Shown here: in pieces, positions 5,724-42,414 of the stretch
How the letters are laid out: every line of letters begins with the position of its first letter
Position numbering within the stretch: the first letter of the stretch is position 1
Assembly (NCBI GenBank): GCA_023300375.1
Contig: JALZWO010000007.1
Coordinates: forward strand, 1 to 42,757
From: Granulosicoccus sp.
GTDB lineage: Bacteria; Pseudomonadota; Gammaproteobacteria; Granulosicoccales; Granulosicoccaceae
Reading direction: 5' to 3'
Length of the DNA: 42,757 bases
The notes under the pieces: generated by a model
Database searches by the model: none
The model's input: only the letters and a program-made list of their open reading frames with translations
Told to the model about the DNA's origin: nothing
Position numbers and translations under genes: made by a program

Positions 5724-5764
5724 ACGACTTGCAATAGTGAACTAGAAATTGTGGACTGGAATGT

Positions 5765-5800: not shown

Positions 5801-5831
5801 CAGTGCTAGCTAGAAATACTAGGCAGCTTAA

Positions 5832-6800: not shown

Positions 6801-6956
6801 GGTGTATTTCTCCACTCTCAACGGGGGCAATTATTCGACAAACGTCTGCTCATCCGAATGACAGGCCCCTCTTAAGCGGGTGCTTCCATCGCTTGTTAAA
6901 ATCTTCAGGCCTCAAATGGTGTTCCACCAAGGCACAAGACCTAACCGGACGCGCTT

Positions 6957-6973
6957 GGCAAACTGTACACCAA
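6957..6973 (-). promoter_or_regulatory. Sigma-54-like -24/-12 element upstream of tmoX
   Basis: Read on the minus strand the bases are TTGGTGTACAGTTTGCC, with the GG-N10-GC spacing and the TTGG...TTGC core of sigma-54 promoters. Transcription would start about 145 bases upstream of tmoX. The match was found by eye in one place and no activator site was identified, so it is a candidate only. Confidence 0.4.
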
Positions 6974-6974
6974 T

Positions 6975-6991
6975 TTTTCATGAAATGAAAA
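6975..6991. promoter_or_regulatory. Inverted repeat (possible operator) in the tmoX-mgsA divergent region
   Basis: TTTTCAT, a 3-base spacer GAA, then ATGAAAA form a perfect 7+7 inverted repeat. It lies in the 268-base region shared by the two divergent arms, directly upstream of the sigma-54-like element, where a regulator could control both directions. The arms are AT-rich, so chance is not excluded. Confidence 0.35.
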
Positions 6992-7068
6992 TCTAATTCC
7001 TGTGTTGAAAGACGAGCCAACAGGTGATAGGGTTCATCGATCAAATTGACCAACTGCTATCGTTTGCC

Positions 7069-8037
7069 ATGTGTGGAATTGCCGGGCTGTACCTGAAAAA
7101 CCCAGATTTGTTTTCAAGCCTGGGAAAGTTGTTTAAACCCATGCTTATAGAGATGACCAGTCGCGGTCCCGATTCTGCGGGCATAGCCATCTACAGAAAC
7201 CCCGTTGCAGCTGGCAATACCAAATTTTCTCTCGCTCACGACTCAACAGAGTACGACTGGGCGTCTTTGGCAAAAGCGCTTGATGCTGAACTCAAAGGTA
7301 GCAGTTCCATCACGCGTATTGATACACATGCCCTGCTCATTAGCGATGGCGACGAGAGTCATGTGAAGCATTGGCTGTCGAACTACGATGCAACAGTTCG
7401 CCTTGTAGGCAGCGGAAACAGTGTTGAAATCTATAAAGAGACTGGCTTACCTGAAGATGTTTATGCACGCTTTAATTTGGAAGGAGCAGCCGGCCAACAC
7501 ATGATTGGACACACACGCATGGCCACAGAAAGTGCGGTCACTTCAGCTGGCTCTCACCCTTTTGCCACAGGCGCTGATCTGTGTCTGGTGCACAACGGAT
7601 CACTGTCCAATCACAACCGATTACGTGAAGAACTCAAACGCAAAGGCGTCAGTTTCGGTAGCGAAAATGACAGCGAAGTGGCGGCCGCCTACCTGACCTG
7701 GAAGCTGCGCCAAGGTATTCCATTAAAACAAGCTCTTGAAGATGCTTTGAAAGATCTGGACGGCTTTTTCACCTTTTGCATAGGCACTAGCGATGGATTT
7801 GCGGTGGTACGTGACCCCATAGCCTGCAAACACGCAGTCATGGCCGAAACTGATGACTGGGTGGCCATGGCCACAGAATTCAGAGCCATCGCTACCCTAC
7901 CTGGCGCTGATACAGCGCGTATTTGGGAACCTAAACCCGCTACGGTTTACGCTTGGGGGAATGAGTCAGTAAACGCGCAGATGGAAGCACCTATCCAATC
8001 CTCCGTCGAAGCCCCCTCTGCAGGAGCTACACATTGA
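7069..8037 (+). CDS. mgsA: N-methylglutamate synthase subunit A (class II glutamine amidotransferase)
   Basis: Ntn-type glutamine amidotransferase domain, 322 residues, corresponding to MgsA or GlxB. The chain must start at MCGIAG (7069), because after Met removal the Cys becomes the N-terminal nucleophile; the longer frame opening with GTG at 7024 would bury it. Further family residues are GHTRMATES (147-155), HNGSLSNHN (175-183) and ENDSEV (199-204). In N-methylglutamate synthase the amidotransferase, GXGXG and FMN modules of glutamate synthase are three separate polypeptides, encoded here by this gene and the next two in order. It would act on gamma-glutamylmethylamide or methylamine plus glutamate. 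Alternative name in rhizobia: glxB. No strong ribosome-binding site is visible. Confidence 0.82.
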   Translation: MCGIAGLYLKNPDLFSSLGKLFKPMLIEMTSRGPDSAGIAIYRNPVAAGNTKFSLAHDSTEYDWASLAKALDAELKGSSSITRIDTHALLISDGDESHVKHWLSNYDATVRLVGSGNSVEIYKETGLPEDVYARFNLEGAAGQHMIGHTRMATESAVTSAGSHPFATGADLCLVHNGSLSNHNRLREELKRKGVSFGSENDSEVAAAYLTWKLRQGIPLKQALEDALKDLDGFFTFCIGTSDGFAVVRDPIACKHAVMAETDDWVAMATEFRAIATLPGADTARIWEPKPATVYAWGNESVNAQMEAPIQSSVEAPSAGATH

Positions 8038-8717
8038 ACTCGCTCGATCTACAAACACTCGGTTTACGCGCTATAAATCAAAAGCTTCAATCTCTGGAAG
8101 CAAAAACTAACGAGCGTGAATGGACCATCACCAATCCGATGGGACAACACGCCATAGCGTGCGGACTCACGGTTCCGATTGAAATCACGGTGGACGGGCA
8201 TGCTGGATTCTATTGCGCAGGTATGAATCAGGAAGCGACAGTCACCATCAATGGCCATGCAGGAGTGGGTGTGGCTGAGAACATGATGAGTGGTCTAGTG
8301 CGTGTCAAAGGCAATGCAAGCCAATCAGCTGGCGCTACAGCTCACGGGGGCTTACTAGTGATAGAAGGAGATGCCTCATCTCGTTGTGGTATATCGATGA
8401 AGGGCATAGACATCGTTGTAGGCGGATCGGTTGGGCACATGTCAGGCTTCATGGCGCAATTGGGCCACATGGTCATTTGCGGTGATGCTGGAGAGGCATT
8501 AGGGGATTCAATTTACGAAGCCAAACTCTATGTAGCGGGCTCTGTAGAGAGTCTAGGCGCAGATTGTATAGAGAAAGAGATGACAGACGACCACATGAAC
8601 ACGTTGGCTGGCTTGCTTGAAAAAGCGGGTATTAACAAGGACGCACATTCATTTCGTCGTTACGGCTCAGCCAGAAAACTCTATAACTTCGATATCGATA
8701 AAGCAGACGCTTATTAG
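8034..8717 (+). CDS. mgsB: N-methylglutamate synthase subunit B (GXGXG domain)
   Basis: Protein of 227 residues matching the GXGXG beta-helix domain of glutamate synthase (MgsB/GlxC). It shows successive turns GHAG, GNAS, GDAS, GSVG and GDAG between about residues 54 and 155. It is a structural module that joins the amidotransferase and FMN subunits. The start is a TTG at 8034 overlapping the mgsA stop (TTGA), with AGGAG at 8022-8026 and an 8-base spacing; the first ATG lies far into the conserved domain. This argues for translational coupling and fixed stoichiometry with MgsA. Confidence 0.82.
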   Translation: MNSLDLQTLGLRAINQKLQSLEAKTNEREWTITNPMGQHAIACGLTVPIEITVDGHAGFYCAGMNQEATVTINGHAGVGVAENMMSGLVRVKGNASQSAGATAHGGLLVIEGDASSRCGISMKGIDIVVGGSVGHMSGFMAQLGHMVICGDAGEALGDSIYEAKLYVAGSVESLGADCIEKEMTDDHMNTLAGLLEKAGINKDAHSFRRYGSARKLYNFDIDKADAY

Positions 8718-8820
8718 AGGCCTTAACGGGTTGCCTTAGAGGCTACCTCCCTTGCTTATCGCCTTTGGTACACAGCGATTTCACACTTTAGATCACGGCT
8801 AGAATTCTTGAATAAAACCT

Positions 8821-10146
8821 ATGGACGATAAAACTCCACAAGCTTCACCCAGGCCATCAGCGACATTCGATGACTACACCATGTCAGAGATTCGCAGAGC
8901 TGCCAGCACTGGCATCTACGATATCAGAGGGTCAGGCGCCAAACGTTCGCTTCCACATTTTGACGACCTACTGTTTCTTGGTGCCTCCATTTCACGCTAT
9001 CCGCTAGAAGGCTACCGTGAGCGCTGTGGCACCGAAGTCACTCTAGGCGATCGCTATGCGTCAAAGCCACTACAGCTAAAAATTCCCATTACCATTGCCG
9101 GCATGAGCTTTGGTTCTTTGTCAGGACAAGCCAAAGAGGCGCTAGGACGTGGAGCAAACCTTGCCGGCACATCAACCACAACGGGCGATGGCGGAATGAC
9201 ACCTGAAGAACGTGGTCATTCAAAACTGTTGGTGTACCAATACCTGCCTTCTCGCTACGGCATGAATCCAGACGACTTGCGCAAAGCGGATGCCATTGAA
9301 ATTGTGGTTGGACAAGGTGCAAAACCTGGTGGTGGTGGCATGCTACTCGGCCAAAAAATAAACGATCGGGTAGCAGCAATGCGATCACTTCCAAAAGGCA
9401 TTGATCAACGCTCAGCCTGCCGCCACCCTGATTGGACAGGCCCAGATGATCTTGAAATTAAAATTCTTGAACTGCGCGAAATCACGAATTGGGAAAAACC
9501 AATTTTCGTAAAAATAGGCGGATCCAGGCCTTACTACGATACGGCACTTGCTGTTAAATCGGGTGCCGATGTCATTGTTCTAGATGGAATGCAAGGTGGT
9601 ACAGCTGCTACACAGAACGTGTTTATTGAACATGTAGGTCAACCCACATTAGCCTGTATAAGACCAGCCGTTAAAGCATTACAAGAACTGGACATGCATC
9701 GAAAAGTACAGATCATCGTTTCTGGTGGCATCAGGAATGGAGCCGATGTAGCCAAAGCTATGGCTCTGGGCGCAGACGCTGTATCCATTGGATCAGCAGC
9801 TCTCATTGCCATGGGCGACAACGACCCCTATTACGAAGACGAATACCGCAAGCTGGGCACCACCGCAGGCTCGTACGATGCATGGCATCTGGGTCGCGAC
9901 CCTGCAGGTATCACCACTCAAGACCCTGAGCTGGCGAGCCGGCTAGATCCTGTAGTTGCAGGCCAACGATTAGCTAATTATCTGAAAGTAATGACTCTTG
10001 AAGCCCAGACAATAGCAAGAGCTTGTGGCAAAAATCATGTGCATAACCTAGAACCAGAAGATCTCTGTGCACTGACAGTAGAGGCGGCAGCGATGGCTCA
10101 AGTACCATTGGCAGGAACTAGCTGGGTGCCAGGACAGGGTTATTGA
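8821..10146 (+). CDS. mgsC: N-methylglutamate synthase subunit C (FMN glutamate-synthase domain)
   Basis: Protein of 441 residues corresponding to the FMN-binding synthase domain of the glutamate synthase large subunit (MgsC/GlxD). Visible family lines are GMSFGSLSGQAKEALGRG, GQGAKPGGGGMLLGQKI, FVKIGGSRP, DVIVLDGMQGGTAATQ and VSGGIRNGADVAKAMALGADAVSIGSAAL; the last is a TIM-barrel phosphate-binding region for FMN. It would be the catalytic subunit making N-methylglutamate. It follows mgsB after 103 bases that contain two direct copies of TTAGAGGC (8714-8721 and 8736-8743) but no terminator. The start ATG has only a weak ribosome-binding site. Confidence 0.83.
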   Translation: MDDKTPQASPRPSATFDDYTMSEIRRAASTGIYDIRGSGAKRSLPHFDDLLFLGASISRYPLEGYRERCGTEVTLGDRYASKPLQLKIPITIAGMSFGSLSGQAKEALGRGANLAGTSTTTGDGGMTPEERGHSKLLVYQYLPSRYGMNPDDLRKADAIEIVVGQGAKPGGGGMLLGQKINDRVAAMRSLPKGIDQRSACRHPDWTGPDDLEIKILELREITNWEKPIFVKIGGSRPYYDTALAVKSGADVIVLDGMQGGTAATQNVFIEHVGQPTLACIRPAVKALQELDMHRKVQIIVSGGIRNGADVAKAMALGADAVSIGSAALIAMGDNDPYYEDEYRKLGTTAGSYDAWHLGRDPAGITTQDPELASRLDPVVAGQRLANYLKVMTLEAQTIARACGKNHVHNLEPEDLCALTVEAAAMAQVPLAGTSWVPGQGY

Positions 10147-10245
10147 TACAACAAGCGCCAAAGCCAAGGCAATTAAACACTAGTTGTTACAATGTTTTCA
10201 CCGACTGAATACAGCGAAAAATAGAGTAAGGAGATACAGCAGGTC

Positions 10246-11556
10246 ATGACACAGAATCTGACGGAACTGGCCAAAGAGAAGGGCATAAAATACTACCTGT
10301 TCAACTTCACTGATCTATTCGGCACCCAGCGTGCCAAATTAGTCCCAGCAGCTGCAGCTGGTGGCATGCAAAAAAGTGGAGCGGGCTTTGCAGGCTTCGC
10401 TGCATGGCTCGATTTCACGCCAGCGCACCCTGATATGTTTGTGATGCCTGATGTTAATTCAGTTATCCAACTACCTTGGAAGCCAGAGGTAGCGTGGGTT
10501 GCCGGTGACCCATGGATGAATGGAGAACCCGTAGAGCAAGGACCACGCAATGTGCTGAAGCGGCTAATGGCCGAGTCAAGTACCAAAGGCATGTTGATGA
10601 AGTCGGGGGTGGAGCCAGAGTTTCATCTCATATCTCCAGACGGACGTACCATCTCTGATGAAAAGGACACGCAAGAGAAACCTTGCTACGACCAGTCAGC
10701 AGTCATGCGGCGATACGATGTGATATCGCAGATTTGCGACACCATGATCGAACTGGGCTGGGGTCCGTACCAAAACGACCATGAAGACGCTAACGGACAG
10801 TTTGAAATAAACTGGGATTTTAATGACGCACTAACCACAGCTGATCAACTGGCCTTCTTCAAGTTTATGGTTAAGTCCATTGCAGAACTACACGGACTAC
10901 GCGCCACATTCATGCCCAAGCCTTTCTCGCATTTAACAGGTAACGGTTGTCATGTACACGTATCGGTGTGGAGCAACGACAGTAAATCTAACCGCTTTAG
11001 CGATGACAATGGAGAGCTTGGACTCTCTGACGAGGCTTACCACTTCATAGGTGGGCTACTGCATCATGGCGAAGCGCTAGCAGCGATTACCAATCCCACT
11101 GTTAATTCTTATAAAAGAATCAGCGCACCTCCCACTTTGTCTGGTGCTACTTGGGCACCGAGCTCCATAACCTTTGGTGGTAACAACCGCACCCACATGA
11201 TTCGCATACCCGATGATGGGCGAATTGAATTACGGCTACCCGATGGCGCTGCCAATCCGTACCTATTGATGGCTGTGATTCTGGCTGCTGGTATGGACGG
11301 CGTTGACAATAAGATACCCGCGGGTAAACGATTAGATAATGATATGTATGCCAACCCTGAGCTAGCAGGTTCAGATCTAAAAGAACTGCCGTTAAACCTA
11401 CTCGATGCCATCCGTCAGTATGAAAAGGACACCACGTTGACAAAGGCTATGGGCTCAGAATTTAGCAAGTCTTATTGCAAGCTCAAACGTAATGATTGGA
11501 GCAAATTCTCTAGTAGTCTTAGCCAGTGGGAACTGGACAACACCCTAGACTGCTAA
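10246..11556 (+). CDS. gmaS: Gamma-glutamylmethylamide synthetase (type III glutamine synthetase-like)
   Basis: Glutamine-synthetase family enzyme, 436 residues, cytoplasmic. Family lines include GVEPEFHLISPDG (metal and glutamate binding), NDHEDANGQFEINW, FMPKPFSHLTGNGCHVHVS, NPTVNSYKRI and NRTHMIRIPDDGRIELRLPDGAANPYLL. Relatives annotated GlnT or GMA synthetase ligate methylamine to glutamate with ATP. The position between mgsABC and the dimethylamine monooxygenase genes supports GmaS over an ammonia-assimilating enzyme. A TAAGGAG sequence lies about 12 bases upstream of the ATG, a rather long spacing. GmaS and Mgs belong to one indirect methylamine pathway; the dehydrogenase that completes it is not in this window. 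Confidence 0.78.
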   Translation: MTQNLTELAKEKGIKYYLFNFTDLFGTQRAKLVPAAAAGGMQKSGAGFAGFAAWLDFTPAHPDMFVMPDVNSVIQLPWKPEVAWVAGDPWMNGEPVEQGPRNVLKRLMAESSTKGMLMKSGVEPEFHLISPDGRTISDEKDTQEKPCYDQSAVMRRYDVISQICDTMIELGWGPYQNDHEDANGQFEINWDFNDALTTADQLAFFKFMVKSIAELHGLRATFMPKPFSHLTGNGCHVHVSVWSNDSKSNRFSDDNGELGLSDEAYHFIGGLLHHGEALAAITNPTVNSYKRISAPPTLSGATWAPSSITFGGNNRTHMIRIPDDGRIELRLPDGAANPYLLMAVILAAGMDGVDNKIPAGKRLDNDMYANPELAGSDLKELPLNLLDAIRQYEKDTTLTKAMGSEFSKSYCKLKRNDWSKFSSSLSQWELDNTLDC

Positions 11557-11628
11557 TTTCTTCAAACAAAGCAGATAACAATCTGTGTTTGAATCGATAC
11601 TTATAGACAACGGAAGAGGTATTACACC

Positions 11629-12762
11629 ATGACAGCAAGCTGGCGTTTTTCTGCACTGGCCGACAGGCACCGTGCTTTAGGTTCCAATCTGGAAGATTGG
11701 AGTGGTATGGGTACCGCCTGGACGTACGATAAGGACCAAGAGGAAGAATATCTTGCCATCCGTACTAAAGCTGGCGTAATGGATGTCTCTGGTTTAAAGA
11801 AAGTCCATATCACTGGTGCTCATGCCTCTCATGTAATAGACAGAGCCACAACTCGCAACGTCGAAAAAATCAGCCCCGGGCGTGCATCCTATGCCTGCAT
11901 GCTTAATGATGCTGGCAAGTTCGTTGATGATTGTGTTATCTACCGTACTGGCGCTAACTCTTTCATGGTGGTCCATGGCTCAGGTGCAGGTCACGAACAA
12001 CTCACGCGTGCAGCTGTAGGCCGCGATGTGTCTATTCGTTTTGATGACAACCTGCATGACATTTCTCTACAAGGCCCACTTGCTGTCGATTTTCTTGAAA
12101 AGCATGTGGAAGGCATTCGGCAACTAAACTACTTTGCCCACATGCCTACGCGTTTGTTCGGTCATCCAGTGACTATCTCAAGAACAGGATACACCGGTGA
12201 GCGAGGCTATGAAATCTTTTGCCGTGGACAAGATGCACCCAATATTTGGGACACCATCGTAGAACAAGGTGCATCAATGGGCATCATCCCCACACGCTTC
12301 ACCACCTTGGATTTGCTACGTGCCGAAAGCTACCTGTTGTTCTATCCTTACGACAATTCCGAGATGTATCCGTTTGAAGATGAAGGCCCCGGAGATACCC
12401 TATGGGAACTAGGCTTGGACTTTACCGTTAGTGAAGGCAAGACTGGATTTCGTGGAGCCGAAGAGCATTATCGTCTTCAAGGAAAAGAGCGGTTTAAAAT
12501 CTATGGACTCATCCTTGACGGAAAGGAAGCAGCTGAAGAGGGTGCGCCATTGCTACTCGATGGCAAAAAGGTAGGTGTGGCTACTATTGGTATGTATTCC
12601 CCTTTGAACAAGCACAATGTAGCCATTGCGCGTATGCCTGTGAGTTGCGCAACACCCGGCACCTCTATGCAAGTTCAAAACAGCACCGGTATGATTGATT
12701 GCACGGCAGCAGCTATGCCGTTCTACGACGTTGACAAAGAACGTCGCACCGCTAAAGGCTAA
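11629..12762 (+). CDS. dmmD: Dimethylamine monooxygenase GcvT-like (folate) subunit
   Basis: GcvT-family protein of 377 residues, with SRTGYTGERGYEIF at 184-197 and LDLLRAESYLLFYPYD at 227-242 in place of the classical GcvT lines. In the dimethylamine monooxygenase (haem-dependent oxidative N-demethylase) system a GcvT-like subunit is thought to bind tetrahydrofolate and take up the formaldehyde released from dimethylamine. The start has a good GAAGAGGT ribosome-binding site. It is the first of four dmm genes here, ordered D-C-B-A. The lettering follows published dmm usage as remembered and should be checked. It is a second folate domain besides that in Tdm. Confidence 0.78.
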   Translation: MTASWRFSALADRHRALGSNLEDWSGMGTAWTYDKDQEEEYLAIRTKAGVMDVSGLKKVHITGAHASHVIDRATTRNVEKISPGRASYACMLNDAGKFVDDCVIYRTGANSFMVVHGSGAGHEQLTRAAVGRDVSIRFDDNLHDISLQGPLAVDFLEKHVEGIRQLNYFAHMPTRLFGHPVTISRTGYTGERGYEIFCRGQDAPNIWDTIVEQGASMGIIPTRFTTLDLLRAESYLLFYPYDNSEMYPFEDEGPGDTLWELGLDFTVSEGKTGFRGAEEHYRLQGKERFKIYGLILDGKEAAEEGAPLLLDGKKVGVATIGMYSPLNKHNVAIARMPVSCATPGTSMQVQNSTGMIDCTAAAMPFYDVDKERRTAKG

Positions 12763-12790
12763 ACCGTGGACTGTAAAGGATAAATCAATA

Positions 12791-13405
12791 ATGAGTCAGC
12801 CAGACGATTCAGCCATTCTAAGCCGACCTCGATACGGCACACTATCGCCTATCGAGGCTTCGTTTCATCTGTTTTGTGCCGATGACGAAGGTGGCCAAGC
12901 CATTGTTGAGTTGGCACAAGATGTACCCGCAAATTTCTTTGATTCAGCAGAAATTATCTATGTCAATAGTCAGCCTGCGCTAAACAGCAAAACCCTGGCG
13001 GCGTTAGAGCAGCTGAATTGCCCCCGCATGTATACAGGCCCAACCATCCACGCAGCCCTACCCCGCTTATCAACCTCGATAAGCCGCATGCGTATGAACT
13101 CACAGATTTATATCAGTGGTAGCGAATCGATGCTAGGCCTTGCAACAATGACCGCAATGCAAGCTAACATTGATCATCAAGCGTTACAAACCGAACACAG
13201 AGGCTCACTGGCACGACGAGTACAGTGTGTTCATTGCAAAGGCATTACCGAACAGGTCACTACACAACCTGCCAGCTGTGAGCATTGTGGATTACTGCTA
13301 CTGGTGCGAGATCACTACTCTCGACGTGCAGCAGCCTTTCAGGGGGTCAACATTAATGCTGAAGACCCCAGCGAGATTCCTGCCAAAGAGGAGGTATTTA
13401 CATGA
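12791..13405 (+). CDS. dmmC: Dimethylamine monooxygenase small subunit with zinc ribbon
   Basis: Protein of 204 residues whose C-terminal part has a zinc-ribbon-like set of cysteines, C146-x2-C149 and C163-x2-C166 (CVHCKG and CEHCG). The N-terminal 135 residues have no recognised domain but resemble a small alpha/beta fold. The ATG at 12791 is chosen over a longer frame from 12695, because the extra residues would overlap dmmD and AAAGGA precedes this ATG. The gene ends overlapping the dmmB start by four bases (ATGA). Its identity rests mainly on its place among the dmm genes; the cysteines suggest a structural metal or electron-transfer role. Confidence 0.68.
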   Translation: MSQPDDSAILSRPRYGTLSPIEASFHLFCADDEGGQAIVELAQDVPANFFDSAEIIYVNSQPALNSKTLAALEQLNCPRMYTGPTIHAALPRLSTSISRMRMNSQIYISGSESMLGLATMTAMQANIDHQALQTEHRGSLARRVQCVHCKGITEQVTTQPASCEHCGLLLLVRDHYSRRAAAFQGVNINAEDPSEIPAKEEVFT

Positions 13406-14364
13406 GCTCCCCTGCTACTATCGACGTCATCGTTACCCATGTTGTCAACGTCAATTCACTTATTAAGCGTTTTCACTTTGCGCGCCTTGATGGTCAGCCT
13501 CTACCAGCGTTCTCTGGCGGCGCACACATTATTGTAGAGATGCAAGATGGCGAAAATCGCCGACGCACACCCTATTCCTTAATGAGTTCACCGCTAGATA
13601 CCGACGACTATCAGATCAGTGTTCGACGCGATGATCAAGGTCGCGGAGGTTCCTTGTACATGCACCAGCAAGTAAAAACTGGAATGCAAATGCGTATCGG
13701 TTATCCCACCAATCTGTTCTCGCTAGACAAACGAGCACCAAAGCATTTGATGTTTGCCGGTGGCATTGGTATCACGCCATTTCTTGCACAGATAAAACAA
13801 CTGATAGCAACCAACGGTAATTTCGAATTACATTACAGTGTAAGAAACCAAGAATTAGGTGCGTATATAAACGAGCTTGCGCAAACCATTGGCAATCGCT
13901 TGCATACATATTATGACGATAAAGAACAACGCATTGCCTTCGATACCTTGCTAAGCACACAGCCTGCAGGTACACATGTTTATGTTTGCGGTCCAACACC
14001 TATGATTGAACATGTACTAAAACGTACAGCGGCTCTGGGGTGGCCAAAGGTACACGTGCATTATGAGCATTTTGCTAAGGCATTGCCCGGTGAGCCATTC
14101 ACGGTGCAGCTGCAAGCGAGTAATAAAACAGTAGAGGTGGGGGAGAATGAATCAATGCTGGAAGCCATGGAAGCGGCCGGTGTTGATGCACCGTACCTAT
14201 GCAGAGGTGGTGCGTGCGGTCAATGCGAAACGAACGTTATAGAACACAACGGCACTCTGCTGCATGAAGATCATTGGCTTGATGAAAACGAACGCGTTAG
14301 TGGTAAAAAAATAATGCCTTGCGTATCCAGATTTTGCGGCACGCAACTTGTTCTAGACCGATAA
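13402..14364 (+). CDS. dmmB: Dimethylamine monooxygenase reductase subunit (PDR-type flavin, [2Fe-2S])
   Basis: Reductase of 320 residues in phthalate-dioxygenase-reductase order: flavin domain with R56TPYSL, NAD(P)H domain with FAGGIGITPFLAQIK (118-132) and VCGPTPMIEHV (196-206), then a plant-type [2Fe-2S] ferredoxin domain with C267, C272, C275 and C307 (LCRGGACGQC). It would pass electrons from NAD(P)H through FMN and the cluster to the haem subunit. AGGAGG lies seven bases upstream of the ATG, and the start overlaps the dmmC stop. On sequence alone it could serve any Rieske-type oxygenase; the DUF3445 gene next door makes the dmm role the better reading. Confidence 0.85.
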   Translation: MSSPATIDVIVTHVVNVNSLIKRFHFARLDGQPLPAFSGGAHIIVEMQDGENRRRTPYSLMSSPLDTDDYQISVRRDDQGRGGSLYMHQQVKTGMQMRIGYPTNLFSLDKRAPKHLMFAGGIGITPFLAQIKQLIATNGNFELHYSVRNQELGAYINELAQTIGNRLHTYYDDKEQRIAFDTLLSTQPAGTHVYVCGPTPMIEHVLKRTAALGWPKVHVHYEHFAKALPGEPFTVQLQASNKTVEVGENESMLEAMEAAGVDAPYLCRGGACGQCETNVIEHNGTLLHEDHWLDENERVSGKKIMPCVSRFCGTQLVLDR

Positions 14365-14427
14365 GAGCTGTAGTCCTAAGACAGCTGGCACACTTTAGAC
14401 AAAAACAATAGCGACAGGAAATACATC

Positions 14428-15483
14428 ATGGCAACCAAGGCCTGCGACCTGCCTTTTCGAAAAGAAACATTCCGAGACGATTTTACTTTTCGTAACTCAC
14501 CAGAGACAATCAAACGCGCGCCGTTTCCTTTTGATAAAGATTCCTACATGTATGCAGTTAATATGGAACTGCACAAGGATGGTCGTGCCGGTACCGCCTT
14601 TGAAAATCCATTTGATGTCGACGAACACTACGTCGCTGAAATGCAAGATAGAGCCTTGGTACTAAATGAAGATCCGCTCCGGTGCCAGTCACTTCCACAT
14701 ATGAAGCTAGCAGGTTGGGATGTACTTGAGCTACTCATGACACATAAAGCCTCTAGTTATCCAGAATGGTTTTCACTGACCAGAGACGGTAATCAATGGC
14801 ATTGGATCAATCGTCCTATGGGCATTGATCAGAAATTCACTTTCGGTGATGAAACAACACTCCCGTATGAGCCCTTAGAGTACATAACACGACAGGCTCA
14901 GGGAGACTTCTGTGTACTGGATGAACGTGACGGTAACTTATGGATGGATGCAGGTATTGTCACCACGCAAGCCGATTGGTCTCTGGACTTCGACATCGGT
15001 ATGAATTTTTTTGAATGGCACGCACCCGTCCCGCTAGCCCACGAAAAAGGAATATTCACGCGAGCACTGAAATACCTGCTAACCATTCAACAAGGCAACC
15101 CTGCACGCAGGCTTAACTGGACAATGACAGTCAATCCTCGGCTAGATACTAGCCCGGAAAATTATCATGTCTGGGGCCCAGAAAACATCCAGATCACTCC
15201 TGAAAATGTGGGTGAAAAACTTTTCCTGCGCATTGAATTACAAAGCTTCTGGCGTCTCCCTCGTTCCAACGCAATGCTTTTCCCTATACGTTGCTATTTA
15301 CTCAGTATGCAGGATCTATCCACTGTTCCAAAGTGGGCAACACGGATGCATCGCGTATTGCAAACCTTACCACCAGAAATTGCAAGCTATAAAGGTCTGG
15401 ACGGTTATAGAGACATCGCCATTGAATGGTTATCTCAGTTTGATAATGGGGCACCCACCAGCAGTGGTTCGTATCCAGACTAA
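14428..15483 (+). CDS. dmmA: Dimethylamine monooxygenase haem subunit (DUF3445)
   Basis: DUF3445-family protein of 351 residues, the PAS-like haem-binding catalytic subunit of oxidative N-demethylases. It would convert dimethylamine, O2 and reducing power to methylamine and formaldehyde. Typical family lines are NWTMTVNPRLDTSPENYHVW (near 230-249), LFLRIELQSFWRLPRSNAML (265-284) and FPIRCYLLSMQDL. The haem ligands cannot be assigned by eye. AGGAAA precedes the ATG. It is the last gene of the plus arm and is followed by an imperfect palindrome before the convergent regulator gene. Confidence 0.85.
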   Translation: MATKACDLPFRKETFRDDFTFRNSPETIKRAPFPFDKDSYMYAVNMELHKDGRAGTAFENPFDVDEHYVAEMQDRALVLNEDPLRCQSLPHMKLAGWDVLELLMTHKASSYPEWFSLTRDGNQWHWINRPMGIDQKFTFGDETTLPYEPLEYITRQAQGDFCVLDERDGNLWMDAGIVTTQADWSLDFDIGMNFFEWHAPVPLAHEKGIFTRALKYLLTIQQGNPARRLNWTMTVNPRLDTSPENYHVWGPENIQITPENVGEKLFLRIELQSFWRLPRSNAMLFPIRCYLLSMQDLSTVPKWATRMHRVLQTLPPEIASYKGLDGYRDIAIEWLSQFDNGAPTSSGSYPD

Positions 15484-34711: not shown

Positions 34712-37700
34712 ATGTTAAAGCCAGAAGACCATGAGCCCAAAATGCACTACCGAGTTTGCAATTTTTGTGAGGCCATGTGTGGTATCGAAGTCCTAGTAGC
34801 ACATCAGGAAAATTCTGATCAACCAGAAATTACCGTAAAGCCTGATAAAAACGACCCCTTCAGTAAAGGCAGTATGTGTCCTAAGGCGCCGATACTCAGC
34901 GCTCTGCAATCAGACCCTGATCGTTTACGTTATCCCGTAAAACGTGTTGGCAACGAATGGGTAGACATATCGTGGGCTGATGCCTACGCAATGGTTGAAG
35001 AAAATATAAAACGGATACGTGATCAACATGGACCAGATGCCATTGCCAGTTACTTAGGTAATCCTATTGTTCACAACATGGGCATGATGCTTTTTGTAAA
35101 AAAACTGACGGCAGCCATAGGCTCAAAGAATGTCTTTTCAGCAACTAGCATGGATCAGCTTCCTCACCACTTTGCAGCACATTTCATGTTTGGCCATGAA
35201 TTTCGAATTCCAGTACCCGATGTCGATCGCACCGATTTCATGATCATCATGGGTGCTAATCCGATTGCCAGTAATGGCAGCATCATGACCTCAGCAGGTA
35301 TTCGTGAACGGCTAAAAGACATCGAGAGCCGAGGTGGCCAGTTTGTTGTGCTAGACCCAAGAGAAACTGAAACAGCCAAAATTGCCACTGCTCATCACTT
35401 TATCCGTCCGGGTACTGACGTCTATTTTTTACTGGCATTTCTTCATGTTTTGTTCAGAGACAATCACATCAAGCTTGAAGGATTAGAGCAACACCTCAAA
35501 GGTCTTGAGGCGGTAGAGTCAATAAAAGATAGCGTTACCCCCCAACAGGCAGAATCGATAACAGGTGTTGCAGCGACAGTCATCGAACAATTGGTGAAAG
35601 ACTATACCGATCAGGACAAAGCCGTTTTATATGGGCGAATGGGGCTCTCTACTCAGCGTCATGGTGGCCTGTGTCACTGGTTAATCAACATCATCAATAT
35701 TCTCTCAGGCAATTTTGACAAACCCGGTGGGATGATGTTTCCTACTCCTGCCATTGAACTAGCACGAGGTCGCGGCCAACAGAACAAATTTGGTCGCTGG
35801 AAAAGTCGCGTTCGTCAGATGCCAGAGTTTTATGGCGAATTACCAGTATCAGCAATGACAGAGGAGCTAACCACTGGCGGTGAAGGGCAGGTTCGTGCAT
35901 TCATGACCATCTGCGGCAATCCGGTTTTATCTACGCCAGGCGGAGGCAGGCTAGATAACGCACTGCCAGATATCGAGTTCATGTTTTCAATAGACAACTA
36001 CATCAACGAGACCACTCGCCATGCACACCTTATATTGCCCACGCCCAGCGGATTAGAAGTTGAACACTACGATCTGATATTCAACTTAATTTCGGTGTCC
36101 AACAACGTCAAGTACTCCGAGGCACTCTTACCGCCAGCAAAAGACCGTCCCTACGACTGGCAAGTGTTAAAAGAGCTTATCGGTCGGCTGTCAACTTCAG
36201 GTCCAGGCTTGCTGCATAAACTGGAAACACCGCGTCGCGTCATTAACGTCGGATTAATGCTTGGCGCCTATGGCAAGCTCAGCCATCCTAAGCGTTGGTT
36301 CTCAGGGCTAACACTGAACAAAGTTATTGAGTCCGGCCACGGAATTAGCTTAGGGCCACTGGTGCCACGTGTGCCAGAGGGCATGATGACCCATGACAAA
36401 AAGATCGATCTCTTGCCTGACGTGTTTTATCAACGCCTGAAAGAGGTTATTGATGAAGGCATGACCAATGACACAGCTATCAGCAACACTGATCTGGCAA
36501 ATCAACAAAAACACAGTAGAGAGGCACCTCCCGCAGAGTTCCGTCTCATTGGTCGACGCCACGTCAGCACAAACAATTCCTGGATGCATCAGTTCCGCAA
36601 GCTTAGTCAAAGCCGTCAGGTCAGGTGCACTGCCATGATAAGCAGCGTTGATGCGCAACGCCTAGCCATTGCAGATGAAGACCTGATAACGGTCAGCTCA
36701 ACAAAGGGCTCTATCACTTTGCCTGCAGAGGTCACCGCGTCCATGATGCCAGGCGTAATCTGTATTCCACACGGTTTTGGGCATACGCGCAGCGGCACCC
36801 GCATACCTAACGCAGAGGCAAAACCAGGCGTTAGCGTAAATGACATAACAGATCATGAGCATGTTGACCCGCTCACCGGTAATGCCGCTTTCTCTGGCTT
36901 GTCAGTTACCGTTGAAAGAATCAGCTCAACCAGCCGACAATCCATTGTTGAAGGCAAACCTCTAACCGTCTTGTTCGGTTCGCGTACTGGCAATGCTGAA
37001 TTCACAGCCCAGGATGTAGCCAAACGTGCAGAAAATTATGGACTAATCGCAGACCCCATTGCACTGGACGACATCAGCCTAGAAGATCTTGTCCATGCGC
37101 AGAGAATTCTTGTTATCTGCAGCACCTACGGTGAAGGGGAGCTACCCGACAATGCACAAACACTGTGGGAGGCGCTAAGTGCAACTAATGCACCACGCCT
37201 TGATCACAGTCATTTTGCAGTGCTTGCATTAGGCGATCGAAGTTACAGCACCTTTTGCGAGGCAGGTAAAACATGGGATGCAAAATTCCAAGAACTTGGA
37301 GCAACACGAATCGCCGATCGAGTAGACTGCGACGTGGATTACTTTGACACCGCTGAGCAGTGGATGGAGTCGGTTTTACCGGCGATAGGTGAAGTCGGTG
37401 ATCAGGATACGATTGTGTCGAAAACAGCCAGCAACGATTCACACGTTAGATACGACAGAAATAACCCACTAAAGGCTCAGCTCGTTGACAAATATCGACT
37501 CACTGCGCAGTCATCGTCCAAGGAAACTTACCACTACGCCTTGTCAATTGCCGGAGCTTCAGTCAGCTACCAGGTTGGCGACACCTTAAATGTACTACCT
37601 ATAAATCGTGAACCTCTAGTACAAGAACTCCTAGAACTTATTGGTAGCGATGGAAGCGAGCAAGTAGCGAGCAGCTCGAAGAGCTTGCACGAGCTACTAC

Positions 37701-38563
37701 TGACCGATCTTGAAATACGAACGCCGTCTCCAGCGCTGCTAGATACCTTGGCAGAAAGATCACCAAACTCAGCCGTACGCAACCTATTGAGTGACAGTGA
37801 TACTGCTGCAAGAGAAGAATACCTGTGGGGCCGTGACATTGTTGATCTCTTAAAAGACAACCCTGACGTTATCACCTCTGTAGAGTCGCTGCTAAAAGTA
37901 CTACGACCACTGACTCCACGCTCATATTCTATCTCTTCAAGCCTCAATTGCCATCCAGACGAGGTTCACTTAACCGTGGCAACAGTAAGATACAACACAG
38001 AGGGCAAACTACACAGTGGCGTGGGTTCAGGTTATCTGGCCGACTTGGCGGAACCCGGCGATGCTGTCAACGTCTACTTTGCACCTAACAATAGTTTCTC
38101 ATTACCCGCCGATGACAGCACACCCATTATTCTCATTGGGCCAGGTACAGGAGTTGCCCCTTTCCGTGGCTTCTTACAGGAGCGAGAACACCGTAAGGCC
38201 ACAGGAAAATCCTGGCTCTTTTTCGGTGATCGGAATGCTGTAACTGACTTTCTTTACCATGATGAGTTGAACACGTACCTGCAGCAAGGATTATTGGCGC
38301 GTCTCGATCTTGCTTTCTCACGTGATCAGGAGAAAAAAATCTACGTACAAGATCGAATGTTAGAGAACGCCACAGAATTTTTTAAGTGGCTACAAGACGG
38401 CGCCGTCGTTTACGTGTGTGGCGATGCTGGACATATGGCTGCAGATGTCGACGACATGCTACATACCATCGTTGAACAGCAGGGTAATTTGACGGCAGAC
38501 AATGCAAGTGAATACGTAAACCAACTCCGCAAGAATAAACGATACTTACGCGATGTCTACTGA
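34712..38563 (+). CDS. Molybdopterin oxidoreductase fused to a CysJ/P450-reductase-like flavoprotein
   Basis: Single chain of 1283 residues. The N-terminal molybdopterin part (to about 740) has a [4Fe-4S] motif C16-x2-C19-x3-C23...C56, the central bis-MGD domain and the C-terminal dinucleotide-binding domain (ending near LSVTVERI). It is followed by flavodoxin (749-892, FGSRTGNAE and CSTYGEGELPDN), an FAD domain (917-1130, with R1070SYS) and an NADPH domain (1137-1283, GPGTGVAPFRGFLQERE, ending RYLRDVY). This allows NADPH to FAD to FMN to Fe-S to Mo electron flow in one soluble protein. Nitrate-reductase/sulfite-reductase-flavoprotein fusions are the nearest known design. Where a Mo ligand is expected (SATSMDQLPHHFAAHFMFG, 143-161) there is no Cys or Sec. 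The ATG at 34712 is chosen; GTG at 34628 and ATG at 34742 are possible. Confidence 0.85.
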   Translation: MLKPEDHEPKMHYRVCNFCEAMCGIEVLVAHQENSDQPEITVKPDKNDPFSKGSMCPKAPILSALQSDPDRLRYPVKRVGNEWVDISWADAYAMVEENIKRIRDQHGPDAIASYLGNPIVHNMGMMLFVKKLTAAIGSKNVFSATSMDQLPHHFAAHFMFGHEFRIPVPDVDRTDFMIIMGANPIASNGSIMTSAGIRERLKDIESRGGQFVVLDPRETETAKIATAHHFIRPGTDVYFLLAFLHVLFRDNHIKLEGLEQHLKGLEAVESIKDSVTPQQAESITGVAATVIEQLVKDYTDQDKAVLYGRMGLSTQRHGGLCHWLINIINILSGNFDKPGGMMFPTPAIELARGRGQQNKFGRWKSRVRQMPEFYGELPVSAMTEELTTGGEGQVRAFMTICGNPVLSTPGGGRLDNALPDIEFMFSIDNYINETTRHAHLILPTPSGLEVEHYDLIFNLISVSNNVKYSEALLPPAKDRPYDWQVLKELIGRLSTSGPGLLHKLETPRRVINVGLMLGAYGKLSHPKRWFSGLTLNKVIESGHGISLGPLVPRVPEGMMTHDKKIDLLPDVFYQRLKEVIDEGMTNDTAISNTDLANQQKHSREAPPAEFRLIGRRHVSTNNSWMHQFRKLSQSRQVRCTAMISSVDAQRLAIADEDLITVSSTKGSITLPAEVTASMMPGVICIPHGFGHTRSGTRIPNAEAKPGVSVNDITDHEHVDPLTGNAAFSGLSVTVERISSTSRQSIVEGKPLTVLFGSRTGNAEFTAQDVAKRAENYGLIADPIALDDISLEDLVHAQRILVICSTYGEGELPDNAQTLWEALSATNAPRLDHSHFAVLALGDRSYSTFCEAGKTWDAKFQELGATRIADRVDCDVDYFDTAEQWMESVLPAIGEVGDQDTIVSKTASNDSHVRYDRNNPLKAQLVDKYRLTAQSSSKETYHYALSIAGASVSYQVGDTLNVLPINREPLVQELLELIGSDGSEQVASSSKSLHELLLTDLEIRTPSPALLDTLAERSPNSAVRNLLSDSDTAAREEYLWGRDIVDLLKDNPDVITSVESLLKVLRPLTPRSYSISSSLNCHPDEVHLTVATVRYNTEGKLHSGVGSGYLADLAEPGDAVNVYFAPNNSFSLPADDSTPIILIGPGTGVAPFRGFLQEREHRKATGKSWLFFGDRNAVTDFLYHDELNTYLQQGLLARLDLAFSRDQEKKIYVQDRMLENATEFFKWLQDGAVVYVCGDAGHMAADVDDMLHTIVEQQGNLTADNASEYVNQLRKNKRYLRDVY

Positions 38564-39311
38564 TACTCCCAACACACAGATTATTACTCCGGCATCTGAA
38601 CCGGAAACCAGTAATTTTGTACGCGCAACCATTGCTGGCGAATCTTATGTTCAGATAGATCGAATGAACGAAACAATACCGTGGTCAGAACCTGTGCACG
38701 CGCTCAATTGGTTTAACACTCGATGGTTACCACTCTATAATTTTTATAATTTTATAGCAGCACGATCAGTTGCACGAGTGGGTGGCAAGCCCATTTTCAA
38801 AGGTGAGTTAATAAAACACATTACCGGCGATACTAACGATTTACGCTCTGTATTACTTATTGTTAGATACCCATCCCCGCTGCACTTTAAGAATATGGCA
38901 GAAAACCTCTATTTCAAAGTTGTCAGTATATTGCGCAGTTTAGCAGTGAAAGAATTTACGTTTTGTCTCACTCATATTGTGAAAGAGGTCAAGGTTCCTA
39001 CCACTATTAATTCCACACTCAGCTATGCTGTACATCACTTTAGGGGATCCGTAAATACTATCGATAAAGTTCAGGCGGCTGTAAGCACATCAAATATTCA
39101 GATGGAATTTTCCAGTTGCAAAACCCATTCGCTAAGCACTGGCAATGCAAGTGGTGTCACTAAACCTATTCCAGCACTTATGAATGGCTTAATACTTCTC
39201 AGTGCAGCAGACAGTAGCGCACTAGAAACCCTTTTAACGTCAGCCGATTATCAGTGTATTGTTGACCAGACAGACAGCTCATTTATCGGATTGTTTAAGC
39301 GTGTAATGTAA
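38553..39311 (+). CDS. Partner protein of the molybdo-flavoprotein, unknown function
   Basis: Protein of 252 residues whose start lies within the last eleven bases of the preceding gene, so expression is probably coupled to it. No signal peptide or membrane helix. The stretch LRSVLLIVRYPSPLHFKNMA (about 97-116) and the next 25 residues recall DUF1330-type ferredoxin-like alpha-beta folds, and the C-terminal half (MNGLILLSAADSSALETLLT to the end) may repeat the fold. This similarity is weak. The arrangement points to a subunit, maturation factor or a second enzyme of the same pathway. Confidence 0.72.
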   Translation: MSTDTPNTQIITPASEPETSNFVRATIAGESYVQIDRMNETIPWSEPVHALNWFNTRWLPLYNFYNFIAARSVARVGGKPIFKGELIKHITGDTNDLRSVLLIVRYPSPLHFKNMAENLYFKVVSILRSLAVKEFTFCLTHIVKEVKVPTTINSTLSYAVHHFRGSVNTIDKVQAAVSTSNIQMEFSSCKTHSLSTGNASGVTKPIPALMNGLILLSAADSSALETLLTSADYQCIVDQTDSSFIGLFKRVM

Positions 39312-39638: not shown

Positions 39639-40375
39639 ATTGGTTTAACTGAATTTGAACGGCGCAATTCAACGCACTGCTCATCGGTCCAATCGGGCGC
39701 AATTTTACGGCTACCCCAATTTTTTAGTTTACAAGAAACACTCATAATGTTGTTGAAACCTGCACTGTGTTTTGCGTGATCAAACATGACATGACCGAGC
39801 TCATGCACCATGATCCAGACAAAACAACGGTCACTAACGCGATTGCTCATCCAGGATGTGCCGGCAATGTCCAGTTGAAGCGAAGGCAAATACGAGAACG
39901 CAACATCGCGTGCAGCGGTAGAGGGTACGACAAACAGCGCTGGCTTTAGGACAGCATAGTTCGCCACTAGATGTTCTTGTGTTTCTCTGTTAATTGACGT
40001 ATCCGGTGCAAGCACAACCGTACGAAGGGTTGCCTTTAATGTAATCTGACATTTCTCAAACAGTGTACTGGCAGCTGTAATCGCCGACTTCACAAAATCG
40101 ATACTGCGCGCCTCATTCACGATCACTATGTTGACGTCTATAGACTTGTCGTTCGAGGTGTATGCGGTCTCTATGCTTGCTTCGTTACTGGCATCAACAA
40201 CCACTAGATCCGTGGCACCTTTACTTGGGTTATTGTCTTCGGTTTTATTCACCTGTTGGCCAGAGTCAATGTCCACATCGCTACTGGCACAAGAGGACAA
40301 AAACACACTCAAGACAAACAACAGACAGAACACCGACGCGTAGTCATTGAATAAAGACGCCTGTTTGCCTTGCAT
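39635..40375 (-). CDS. Putative zincin-type lipoprotein (HELGH)
   Basis: Protein of 246 residues. The N-terminus has a hydrophobic stretch ending in a lipobox, LSSC with C29, so it should be membrane-anchored after processing. A polar linker follows. The C-terminal domain contains VHELGHVMFDHAKH (H191-E-L-G-H195, with H200 and H203 as possible third zinc ligands) and, about 15 residues later, NNIMS, which could act as a Met-turn. It therefore looks like a zinc metallopeptidase, but the exact metzincin spacing is not met. The start at 40375 opens on the signal and shares one base with the stop of the upstream TPR-sulfotransferase gene (TAATG). Confidence 0.72.
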   Translation of the reverse strand: MQGKQASLFNDYASVFCLLFVLSVFLSSCASSDVDIDSGQQVNKTEDNNPSKGATDLVVVDASNEASIETAYTSNDKSIDVNIVIVNEARSIDFVKSAITAASTLFEKCQITLKATLRTVVLAPDTSINRETQEHLVANYAVLKPALFVVPSTAARDVAFSYLPSLQLDIAGTSWMSNRVSDRCFVWIMVHELGHVMFDHAKHSAGFNNIMSVSCKLKNWGSRKIAPDWTDEQCVELRRSNSVKPI

Positions 40376-42414
40376 TATGCGAGCCCTCGGTACAATGGCT
40401 CTAGATTCATATCGAAACGCTTCCAAGCATCCAGAGACGCTGTTGAGATAGCTTGCCTTGCTTGAAAAAAGCTTGCAGTATTGATATCGGATACAACATC
40501 TTTTTCTAACGTAGCTATGGGAGAGTAGTTCCTACCTAAAAAATCAGCGATATCTGTAAATGCTATTTCTGGATTAGTCACCACTGCTTCATAAGAAACA
40601 TCGTACATCTGTAGTGGCAAAACTGCTTTCCAATGATGCATTAATCTATCGTACGATTTCCAAGCTCTGCCAAGCCCGTAAAGGTCATAGGTGAAGCGTA
40701 GCCCTCTGGCAAACAGATTCGTATAGCAAGAGACACAACAAGCATGAGACTCGCGCGAACAATGTAGTATTTTTGCACTTGGATACATAGCTGCAATAAT
40801 ACCTAAGCGCAAGAAATTACCCAACATTTTATCGACATAAAATGTACACAAGCCATTGCCCATCACCGCAGTAGTACTTTTATTTTTTTCACCCGCTCTA
40901 ACAGGCAACGATTGCGAATACTGCTGACGCATATAATCGCTTCCTTTTTTTTCAAGGAACTCAGCACATTCAAACGCTGGCAATTGCTGCCCTGTAATCG
41001 TTGGCAAATCCATGAACAATCGACGAATAGTAGGGTGCTCACCTAGACCAAACGCTCCCATATGCTGTGTCAAGTTGTGTTCAAGCAGGGTTGAACCTGA
41101 ACGTGGCATACCTACGATAAATACTAACCCCTCACCTCCCAGCCCCATACCTTTTGTCCGTTTAAAGTACGATGTTGAAAAATTCTTGATAATGCCGTCT
41201 ATGTAAAGATCCCACGCATCAGGGTCAAAAGGATTCATGTCAGCATGAATTCTGTTAGCTTCATCGTAGGCTGAAAATGCCTCCTCAAAGCGCTGCTCCT
41301 TATCGAGTATCCGTGCTATAGAAAAAAGAAACTGCGCACGTTGCTCACCACTCAGTTGCTTGTTATCGGCTTGTTGCCGCCAGCGACTCATTTCATCTAC
41401 AGTAATGTTTGACCGACCGTTGGCCGCTAGGCTGTAAGCTGCACGTCCCAAGGTGTTGTCAATAATCAATGCTTGTCGGTGGCTTTGCACAGCCTGTTCA
41501 AAATCACCCGCGACTTGTTCGCATAACCCACGCTGAAACGAGGTAATAGCGGACTGCTTCTCGGAGGCTAACAAAGACGTGGATGATTGAGGCTCTAACA
41601 ATTGCCGTGCATCTGCATAACGACCTAGATTGATCATAAGACCGGTTAACTGTTCAATCAGACCCGCATCTAAGTTGACATTGCCTACAGCAAAAATTGT
41701 TTGTGTCTGTGCTTGATCAAGTAGTTGAGACGCTAACTCTGATCGATCTGTATCTATTAGTGTTCTAACGGCCTGTATCAGCGTTTGCGCATCGCTGTCT
41801 ATATATTCTCTTATATCCCGAATATTATTTTCAGCCTGAGCAAAATTACCACTGCGAGCCAGCAAACTGATCAATTGCAACTTGATTGCAACAGCTGCAC
41901 CCTCTTGTCTAGCCAATAATGTCAAATGTTCAATAGCCTGCTCAAATTCGCCGATTGCTTCGAGCGAATTAGCCAGATTCAGGCGGCAGTCTCGGTCGTT
42001 TGGCGAACGCTCTATGGCCGCTTTATAACTATCAGCTGCCTCAGAATATTGGGACTGATCAAATAGCGCATTGCCCAACATAAAATAGACATCTGCCTCA
42101 TCAGAGCCTAGTGATAATGCTCTACGAAAATAATTTTCAGCTGTATTGTACTCCGCCAAGGATTGGTACAGCTCTCCTTGATGAAAGCTAATCAGGGCAT
42201 TCTTTGGGCTTAATTTTGCCGCCTTCTCCAGTAGCTGTTTCGCGTGTTCATGCTTACCGAGTTGCAGCTTGAGAACACCACGCATGTGCAGTGCTTCCAC
42301 ATGGCGCTGATCACGTGAGAGTATCTTACTGTACAGTTTTTCTGCTTTATACAAATGACCTTGCTGGTGAAATCCGATCGCTTTTTGCAGTATTAAATCA
42401 GAAGACTGGGCCAT
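40375..42414 (-). CDS. Tetratricopeptide-repeat protein with C-terminal sulfotransferase domain
   Basis: Protein of 679 residues. Residues 5-395 are TPR repeats, most regular between 5 and 160 (for example AEKLYSKILSRDQRHVEALH). From about 428 there is a sulfotransferase domain with the PAPS 5'-phosphosulfate loop GMPRSGSTLLE (435-445) and ILHCSRES near 550, where the 3'-phosphate site is expected. Such TPR-sulfotransferases are common in marine bacteria and are thought to sulfate proteins or glycans; targets are unknown. No signal peptide is seen. It is coupled by a TAATG overlap to the zincin-like lipoprotein gene. Confidence 0.85.
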   Translation of the reverse strand: MAQSSDLILQKAIGFHQQGHLYKAEKLYSKILSRDQRHVEALHMRGVLKLQLGKHEHAKQLLEKAAKLSPKNALISFHQGELYQSLAEYNTAENYFRRALSLGSDEADVYFMLGNALFDQSQYSEAADSYKAAIERSPNDRDCRLNLANSLEAIGEFEQAIEHLTLLARQEGAAVAIKLQLISLLARSGNFAQAENNIRDIREYIDSDAQTLIQAVRTLIDTDRSELASQLLDQAQTQTIFAVGNVNLDAGLIEQLTGLMINLGRYADARQLLEPQSSTSLLASEKQSAITSFQRGLCEQVAGDFEQAVQSHRQALIIDNTLGRAAYSLAANGRSNITVDEMSRWRQQADNKQLSGEQRAQFLFSIARILDKEQRFEEAFSAYDEANRIHADMNPFDPDAWDLYIDGIIKNFSTSYFKRTKGMGLGGEGLVFIVGMPRSGSTLLEHNLTQHMGAFGLGEHPTIRRLFMDLPTITGQQLPAFECAEFLEKKGSDYMRQQYSQSLPVRAGEKNKSTTAVMGNGLCTFYVDKMLGNFLRLGIIAAMYPSAKILHCSRESHACCVSCYTNLFARGLRFTYDLYGLGRAWKSYDRLMHHWKAVLPLQMYDVSYEAVVTNPEIAFTDIADFLGRNYSPIATLEKDVVSDINTASFFQARQAISTASLDAWKRFDMNLEPLYRGLA

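Follow-up and report, generated by a model that had tools for sequence, protein, structure and literature searches.

A contig of Granulosicoccus sp. (JALZWO010000007.1, 42,757 nucleotides; this whole stretch is referred to below as the window) carries a gene in which a molybdenum (Mo) enzyme is fused to a CysJ-like diflavin reductase, and which overlaps the start of a second gene encoding a partner protein. Both the fusion and the overlapping partner are confirmed features of this DNA. On balance, we consider the fusion protein to be probably a soluble, cytoplasmic, one-chain NADPH-dependent Mo reductase of an oxyanion, an N-oxide or an S-oxide, with a bis-molybdopterin guanine dinucleotide (bis-MGD) cofactor bound by Asp148 and with the partner handling its substrate or product.

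The fusion open reading frame (ORF) that an earlier note had reported was confirmed at 34712-38563 on the forward strand, where it begins with ATG and translates to 1283 amino acids (aa); an alternative upstream GTG start at 34628 would extend the protein to 1311 aa. All six Pfam domains scored above their cut-offs, in the order Molybdop_Fe4S4, Molybdopterin, Molydop_binding, Flavodoxin_1, FAD_binding_1 and NAD_binding_1. The features of the locus are as follows.

34712..38563, forward strand: fusion gene, 1283 aa, with the Mo half at residues 1-740 and the CysJ-like diflavin half at residues 745-1283.
34712..36931, forward strand: Mo half, residues 1-740, from Pfam and clade placement; Molybdop_Fe4S4 at residues 15-58, Molybdopterin at 71-491, Molydop_binding at 610-728.
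34757..34879, forward strand: [4Fe-4S] cysteines C16, C19, C23 and C56 (CNFCEAMC ... MCPK), kept in 37/37 aligned clade members.
35138..35194, forward strand: ligand loop SATSMDQLPHHFAAHFMFG, residues 143-161.
35153..35155, forward strand: GAT codon of Asp148, the proposed Mo ligand, from conservation and alignment.
36944..38560, forward strand: diflavin half, residues 745-1283, from the TIGR01931 cysJ match.
36968..37339, forward strand: flavin mononucleotide (FMN; flavodoxin) domain, Flavodoxin_1, residues 753-876, from Pfam.
37454..38035, forward strand: flavin adenine dinucleotide (FAD)-binding domain, FAD_binding_1, residues 915-1108, from Pfam.
38132..38449, forward strand: NADPH-binding domain, NAD_binding_1, residues 1141-1246, with GPGTGVAPFR and SRDQEKKIYVQ.
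38553..38563, forward strand: overlap of the fusion end and the partner start, 11 bases.
38553..39311, forward strand: partner gene (P0002), 252 aa, with two predicted tandem ferredoxin-like / DUF1330-type domains at residues ~48-140 and 157-250.

By sequence, the Mo half is a molybdoenzyme of the [4Fe-4S]/bis-MGD type. The diflavin half carries the motifs RSYS, GPGTGVAPFR, SRDQEKKIYVQ and a C-terminal RDVY, and the pattern SRDQ..K.YVQ is a marker of NADPH rather than NADH. It matched the TIGR01931 cysJ model with 602.2 bits over residues 745-1283, which lies under the equivalog cut-off of 668.15 and marks it as related to CysJ, and its best relatives of solved structure were the CysJ flavoproteins 6efv (1.7e-117) and 9c91. 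Among the best 25 of 55 NCBIfam matches of the fusion protein no model exceeded its cut-off, and PADLOC gave no match to it. The one-chain electron path from NADPH to Mo that the earlier note had described is thus borne out by the domain content.

The whole fusion with its adjoining partner was found in five genomes, including the 4.58-Mb genome of the window. Relative to the window, the whole fusions were 86% identical in G024 (locus L012), 80-81% in G008 (L013), 67% in G025 (L048) and 58% over the best segment in a Woeseiaceae metagenome-assembled genome (MAG; L014). Where near relatives of the locus carry a name, they are MAGs of Granulosicoccus or Granulosicoccaceae; the window's genome and G025 share their genus with G024 and on that ground would also belong to the Granulosicoccaceae. 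Within the order, the fusion occurred in 4 of 48 genomes and the partner in the same four; since the partner stands beside the fusion in all of these (4/4) and likewise in the Woeseiaceae genome, the proposal that the two are coupled is upheld, as is that of an 11-base overlap, the fusion and partner genes sharing these bases because the partner ORF (38553-39311) starts at 38553. The overlap is 11 bases in four of the five loci (window, L012, L013 and L048), and a 9-base gap takes its place in L014. The ratio of nonsynonymous to synonymous substitution rates (dN/dS) against L012 was 0.049 for the Mo half, 0.091 for the flavin half and 0.138 for the partner, and the values against L013 were 0.037 (Mo half) and 0.101 (partner); synonymous sites were saturated in the other comparisons. 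Given the orthologous pairs in four more genomes and the low dN/dS against L012, the pairing of fusion and partner goes beyond chance. Among the matches listed for 397 other genomes of a phylum sample, with two candidates scored per genome, none covered both halves, and no stand-alone Mo relative at E <= 1e-100 was found in the 48 genomes of the order. A scan of contigs with six peptide patterns found three loci, and because it used these six patterns further fusions may exist.

We placed the Mo half in a tree of 54 domains, in which the five fusions and 32 stand-alone proteins formed one group (Shimodaira-Hasegawa-like approximate likelihood ratio test, SH-aLRT, 100) and the fusions themselves were monophyletic (SH-aLRT 100), pointing to a single origin. 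The stand-alone members, of ~700 aa and about 36-46% identity, are called 'molybdopterin-dependent oxidoreductase' and come from Pseudomonadota, Deinococcus and Streptomyces; relatives on plasmids include those of Deinococcus (H20 and H21, 44%) and Streptomyces (36-40%). We refer to this group as the SATSxDQ clade, to which the window's Mo half belongs, since it falls within this group in the tree and retains the invariant loop and the Fe-S cysteines. PA3768 was considered as a further member and dropped, as no literature match backed it. At least 31 of the 397 other genomes in the phylum sample held Mo-half matches of the same kind, so that orphan SATSxDQ molybdoenzymes are common there, and the earlier note's view of an undescribed enzyme system has to yield to the extent that the catalytic half is not rare. 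None of four stand-alone members reached any NCBIfam cut-off in a scan at E <= 1e-40. The clade may equal an uncharacterised MopB group of CDD; a text search for that name returned nothing, and among the titles and abstract openings of open-licence literature nothing names the SATSxDQ clade, an Mo-diflavin fusion of this kind or the partner. Around stand-alone members at 28 loci (flanks of 4 to ~10 kb), we saw no informative neighbour that recurred in three or more lineage labels, a criterion under which neighbours shared within one lineage would not show. What did recur in three or more labels consisted of Mo-gene pieces, shadow frames and common families (by eye: ABC ATPase, short-chain dehydrogenase/reductase, aminotransferase, helicase and GGDEF/EAL-like proteins) at varying distance and strand. 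Since this neighbourhood is uninformative, donor and substrate of the orphan members cannot be guessed from it; by pointing to a likely donor and to a partner, the fusion makes substrate screening by NADPH oxidation possible for the whole clade.

The architecture itself has a precedent: according to PMC7816997, NasN of mycobacteria (MSMEG_4206) is an NADPH-fed diflavin nitrate reductase with the same domain order as the fusion, reached, as our trees indicate, by separate descent, and that source cites J Biol Chem 2020;295:5051-66 as characterising NasN. Two other mycobacterial Mo proteins, MSMEG_6816 and MSMEG_2237, are reported in PMC7816997 to be dispensable for nitrate assimilation. Four NasN proteins grouped (99) apart from the fusions, joined by NapA and two rows of NasA type (95); because of long branches, the branching order of the deep outgroup rows is not to be trusted. 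Forcing the five fusions and the four NasN rows together in an approximately unbiased (AU) test of 34 rows, with 20 of the 54 rows excluded (7 long-branch and 13 near-identical), cost 375 log units (p-AU 1.25e-39). Placement inside the assimilatory nitrate reductase clade, which the earlier note had named as an outcome that would refute it, was thus looked for, and the Mo half fell outside the NasA/NapA/NasN group. The trees leave aside L067, a NasN-like match on a Klebsiella plasmid (5001-9196) that was not read through as a single ORF and whose Mo-half ORF found measures 392 aa, and L040, which is a flavin-only locus.

The flavin half has a different history from that of NasN as well. Its closest stand-alone relatives read were L104 (51% identity) and L105 (49%), within a span of 45-51% for the nearest such relatives read. 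Six stand-alone loci were read among the top matches (L102-L107), and all six adjoin the gene for the large subunit of glutamate synthase (GltB), as assigned by Pfam at four loci and by annotation at two; this count excludes the flavin-half matches in G770 and on the Ketogulonicigenium and Sinorhizobium plasmids. These reductases are separate genes of about 580-590 aa, and their gene order suggests that they donate electrons to glutamate synthase, possibly as a replacement for GltD. In a flavin-half tree of 23 rows, the fusions formed a clade (100/99) nested with L104 and L105 (100/99), and the wider grouping with all six GltB-side reductases was less firm (91/92). A joint flavin-half clade of the fusions and NasN was rejected (p-AU 0.0005). 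Since joint clades were rejected in both the Mo and the flavin trees, both halves of the fusion differ in origin from those of NasN. We had also considered the fusion as a member of NasN itself, and this assignment was rejected by the trees and AU tests of both halves and by the presence of Asp148 instead of Cys.

A second, convergent diflavin nitrate reductase, doing NasN's job with a different Mo half, nevertheless deserves consideration, given the shared domain order. NarG, an Asp-ligated nitrate reductase, shows that Asp is compatible with nitrate reduction, and one stand-alone clade member (in L049) has a gene for a NarK-type nitrate transporter ~6 kb away on the opposite strand. The Mo half, however, shares just 22% identity with a NasN-type protein and sits outside the NasN/NasA/NapA group, and the window's genome already has a seemingly normal nitrate assimilation locus (L113), with a NarK-type transporter and NirB above cut-offs next to the reductase L002, which the tree joins to an annotated nitrate reductase (100) though it reaches no NCBIfam cut-off. 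Moreover, a gene for a nitrate transporter, nirB or a gene of the NirA family lies within the stretch at each of the five annotated loci of a NasN-type protein or nitrate reductase that were inspected, whereas at the fusion loci, where ORFs were judged by eye and part of them scanned, nothing recognisable as a nitrate or nitrite gene turned up. The sixth nitrate-type place (L067) has no coding sequence annotated over the match and no transporter, nirB or NirA-family gene. We therefore regard nitrate reduction as an unlikely role for the fusion.

With respect to the metal site, the earlier note had described a ligand region devoid of Cys and selenocysteine (Sec), which is correct for residues 143-161 (SATSMDQLPHHFAAHFMFG), but the site is filled by an invariant Asp148. 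This residue was present in all 37 aligned clade rows and in three of three more read separately (L097, L098 and L099), a count that leaves aside the Mo-half matches in G569 and G534. In HMMER alignments, Asp148 stood opposite Cys or X, the latter presumably Sec, in five of five distinct solved proteins for which an alignment was printed (9t1s, 1aa6, 7qv7, 2vpw and 7bkb). A MAFFT alignment likewise paired it with Cys for NapA, the NasN-type proteins, FdhF (with Sec entered as C), YdeP and the Methylocystis protein, and in the rows L001, L002 and L004 from the window's own genome. In an ungapped frame of 22 residues, it occupied the Cys place (Sec in FdhF) in 7/7 references, which were hand-picked from the MAFFT alignment with the Cys register. 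Asp is known as a Mo ligand in NarG and its relatives.

The same alignments bear on whether the enzyme could run in reverse, as a dehydrogenase of formate or another compound that produces NADPH. The best Mo-family scores were to formate dehydrogenases, namely TIGR01591 with 218.7 bits and, among solved proteins, 9t1s, and diflavin electron flow is reversible in principle. Yet 218.7 bits is far under the TIGR01591 cut-off of 666.25, and in the HMMER alignment His141 and Arg333 of FdhH, which we assume to be the residues with roles in formate oxidation, are replaced by Q149 and P346 of the fusion, which are kept in 36/37 and 35/37 clade rows, respectively. These replacements disfavour formate oxidation, and CysJ-type domains serve reductases, so that a dehydrogenase appears very improbable.

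For the partner, the earlier suggestion of DUF1330-like features held in part. Pfam returned no family above cut-off for the window protein and no DUF1330 match at E <= 0.1, and against DUF1330 (PF07045, cut-off 23 bits) the Woeseiaceae ortholog in L014 scored 18.3 bits, below the cut-off, and the distant homolog L054 scored 31.3 bits, above it. An AlphaFold model of the partner from four rows (predicted local distance difference test, pLDDT, 53; predicted template modelling score 0.55) displayed two tandem beta-alpha-beta-beta-alpha-beta units. The best 12 Protein Data Bank matches of this weak model in VIA-align had Z scores of 10.6-11.4 and root-mean-square deviations (rmsd) of 3.4-5.2 over 178-198 aligned residues. 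The top rows were CT0912 (3gn6; Z 11.4, rmsd 4.4, 198 aligned), the anthrone-oxidase-like 5f9p, sulfur oxygenase reductases and coproheme decarboxylase, which we take to be two-unit alpha+beta barrels; among the lower rows were proteins with one ferredoxin-like unit, for instance designed proteins and ribosomal S6. Foldseek gave a best match of 2.5e-6 at a template modelling score of about 0.4-0.5, with chlorite dismutases and coproheme decarboxylases among its rows. A common fold proves no function, and the partner probably consists of two tandem DUF1330-type (alpha+beta barrel) domains, as judged from this model. L054, in genome G159, is a DUF1330-type relative of two-domain length, and because the ORFs of the 20-kb stretch around it include no recognisable Mo gene, the partner family extends beyond the fusion system. 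PADLOC returned one chance-level match to the partner (MTase_II, 15 bits, E 0.00098), and a search of open-licence papers for DUF1330 together with molybdenum found none.

Beyond the domain assignments, a mechanism can be drawn up by analogy with characterised relatives. NADPH would be oxidised at FAD, and electrons would pass from FAD to FMN, to the [4Fe-4S] cluster held by C16, C19, C23 and C56, and on to Mo, held in a bis-MGD cofactor with Asp148 as ligand. There, oxygen-atom transfer would reduce a small oxidised compound, by a reasoned guess an oxyanion, N-oxide or S-oxide. For the partner, we envisage binding or delivery of the substrate or product, or its further conversion. In evolutionary terms, the fusion probably arose once, when a stand-alone molybdoenzyme of the Asp-bearing clade was joined to a diflavin reductase of the GltB-side type, independently of NasN. 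A broader proposal, which we put forward tentatively and with rather less confidence, is that the SATSxDQ clade could represent an unrecognised cytosolic bis-MGD class in which Asp replaced Cys or Sec independently of the NarG group, acting on a new substrate, with NADPH as donor through a GltB-type diflavin reductase and with the partner as a dedicated second enzyme or carrier.

Several results weigh against the reading of the fusion as an Asp148-dependent NADPH-driven reductase. With reference profiles of 1-6 rows, hhalign matched Asp148 to Cys for YdeP alone, was one residue off for NarG and placed it elsewhere for the other five of seven profiles. In addition, a second MAFFT run with more divergent rows lost the Asp148-Cys register, and the AlphaFold model of the Mo half, built from a shallow alignment of four rows, was unusable (pLDDT 37). 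Because that model failed, the ligand assignment draws on alignment alone. The model of the partner is weak (pLDDT 53), no known activity was found for any clade member, and the substrate class is deduced from the kind of donor and from what is known of Asp-ligated relatives, rather than from gene context. The unusable model and the disagreement of hhalign for 5/7 profiles leave some room for Asp148 not being the Mo ligand at all, with the metal having another protein ligand or none, as in AioA, and the loop merely shaping the pocket. Absolute conservation of Asp148, its Sec/Cys register in the HMMER alignments and the ungapped frame speak against this, and we hold it to be improbable. Weighing conservation and the HMMER and MAFFT register against hhalign, the second MAFFT run and the failed model, we regard Asp148 as a likely, not proven, Mo ligand.

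Upstream of the fusion in L013 (895-3604) and L048 (14333-17072) lie three genes, one for an FG-GAP/UnbV_ASPIC protein, one for a DUF6796-type protein and one for a small membrane protein with a CPxIGxxPxCY-like motif. The last also has a relative encoded at 11616-12044 of L014, and downstream of the fusion in L014 and L048 lies a gene for a GltB-like protein. For these shared neighbours one member of each pair was scanned and the other judged by eye, save that both FG-GAP proteins were scanned, and the small protein matches no Pfam family. In the window and in L012, none of these four kinds of gene was seen beside the fusion. Elsewhere in the window, a cluster for trimethylamine N-oxide (TMAO)/methylamine breakdown spans 315-15483, ~19 kb from the fusion. 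Its TMAO demethylase reaches 1192.5 bits against NF053776, whose cut-off is 1100, and the cluster also holds genes for a choline/betaine-type ABC transporter, split glutamate-synthase-like genes, a type III glutamine synthetase, DmmA and an HODM alpha-like protein. A tetratricopeptide repeat and sulfotransferase protein is encoded at 40375-42414.

Taken together, the fusion shares parts with several known systems and matches none of them throughout. The GltB-side diflavin reductases are the nearest relatives read of its flavin half, with L104 and L105 as its sister group, but they are separate genes beside GltB and lack a fused Mo enzyme. Stand-alone SATSxDQ enzymes belong to the same clade (100) and share the SATSxDQLPHH-type loop, whereas no flavin half was present in the ORFs read and no informative neighbours recur around them. 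FdhH and the thiosulfate reductase PhsA (2vpw, whose match spans 4-697 of 699) are of the same sequence family as the Mo half; unlike it, they have a Sec or Cys ligand, and the fusion lacks the formate residues and scores far below the NCBIfam cut-offs. The partner may resemble DUF1330 and dimeric alpha+beta barrel proteins, going by the topology of its weak model and weak profile matches of its relatives, and differs from DUF1330 proteins in having two predicted tandem domains and, for the window protein itself, no profile match.

NasN resembles the fusion in design, being, according to PMC7816997, a single chain with an Fe-S/Mo half followed by a CysJ-like FMN-FAD-NADPH half and with NADPH as donor. 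Proteins of this type are annotated 'bifunctional nitrate reductase/sulfite reductase flavoprotein subunit alpha', and the one from M. ulcerans shares 22% identity with the fusion over the Mo half and 42% over the flavin half. At the ligand position, the fusion has Asp where 4/4 NasN-type rows and the Methylocystis nitrate reductase have Cys, and, judged by annotation names, no P0002-like partner occurs in any of the five annotated stretches shown for NasN-type proteins or nitrate reductases. The fusion would therefore stand as a second, independent one-chain NADPH-Mo reductase, assembled from parts that differ from those of NasN.

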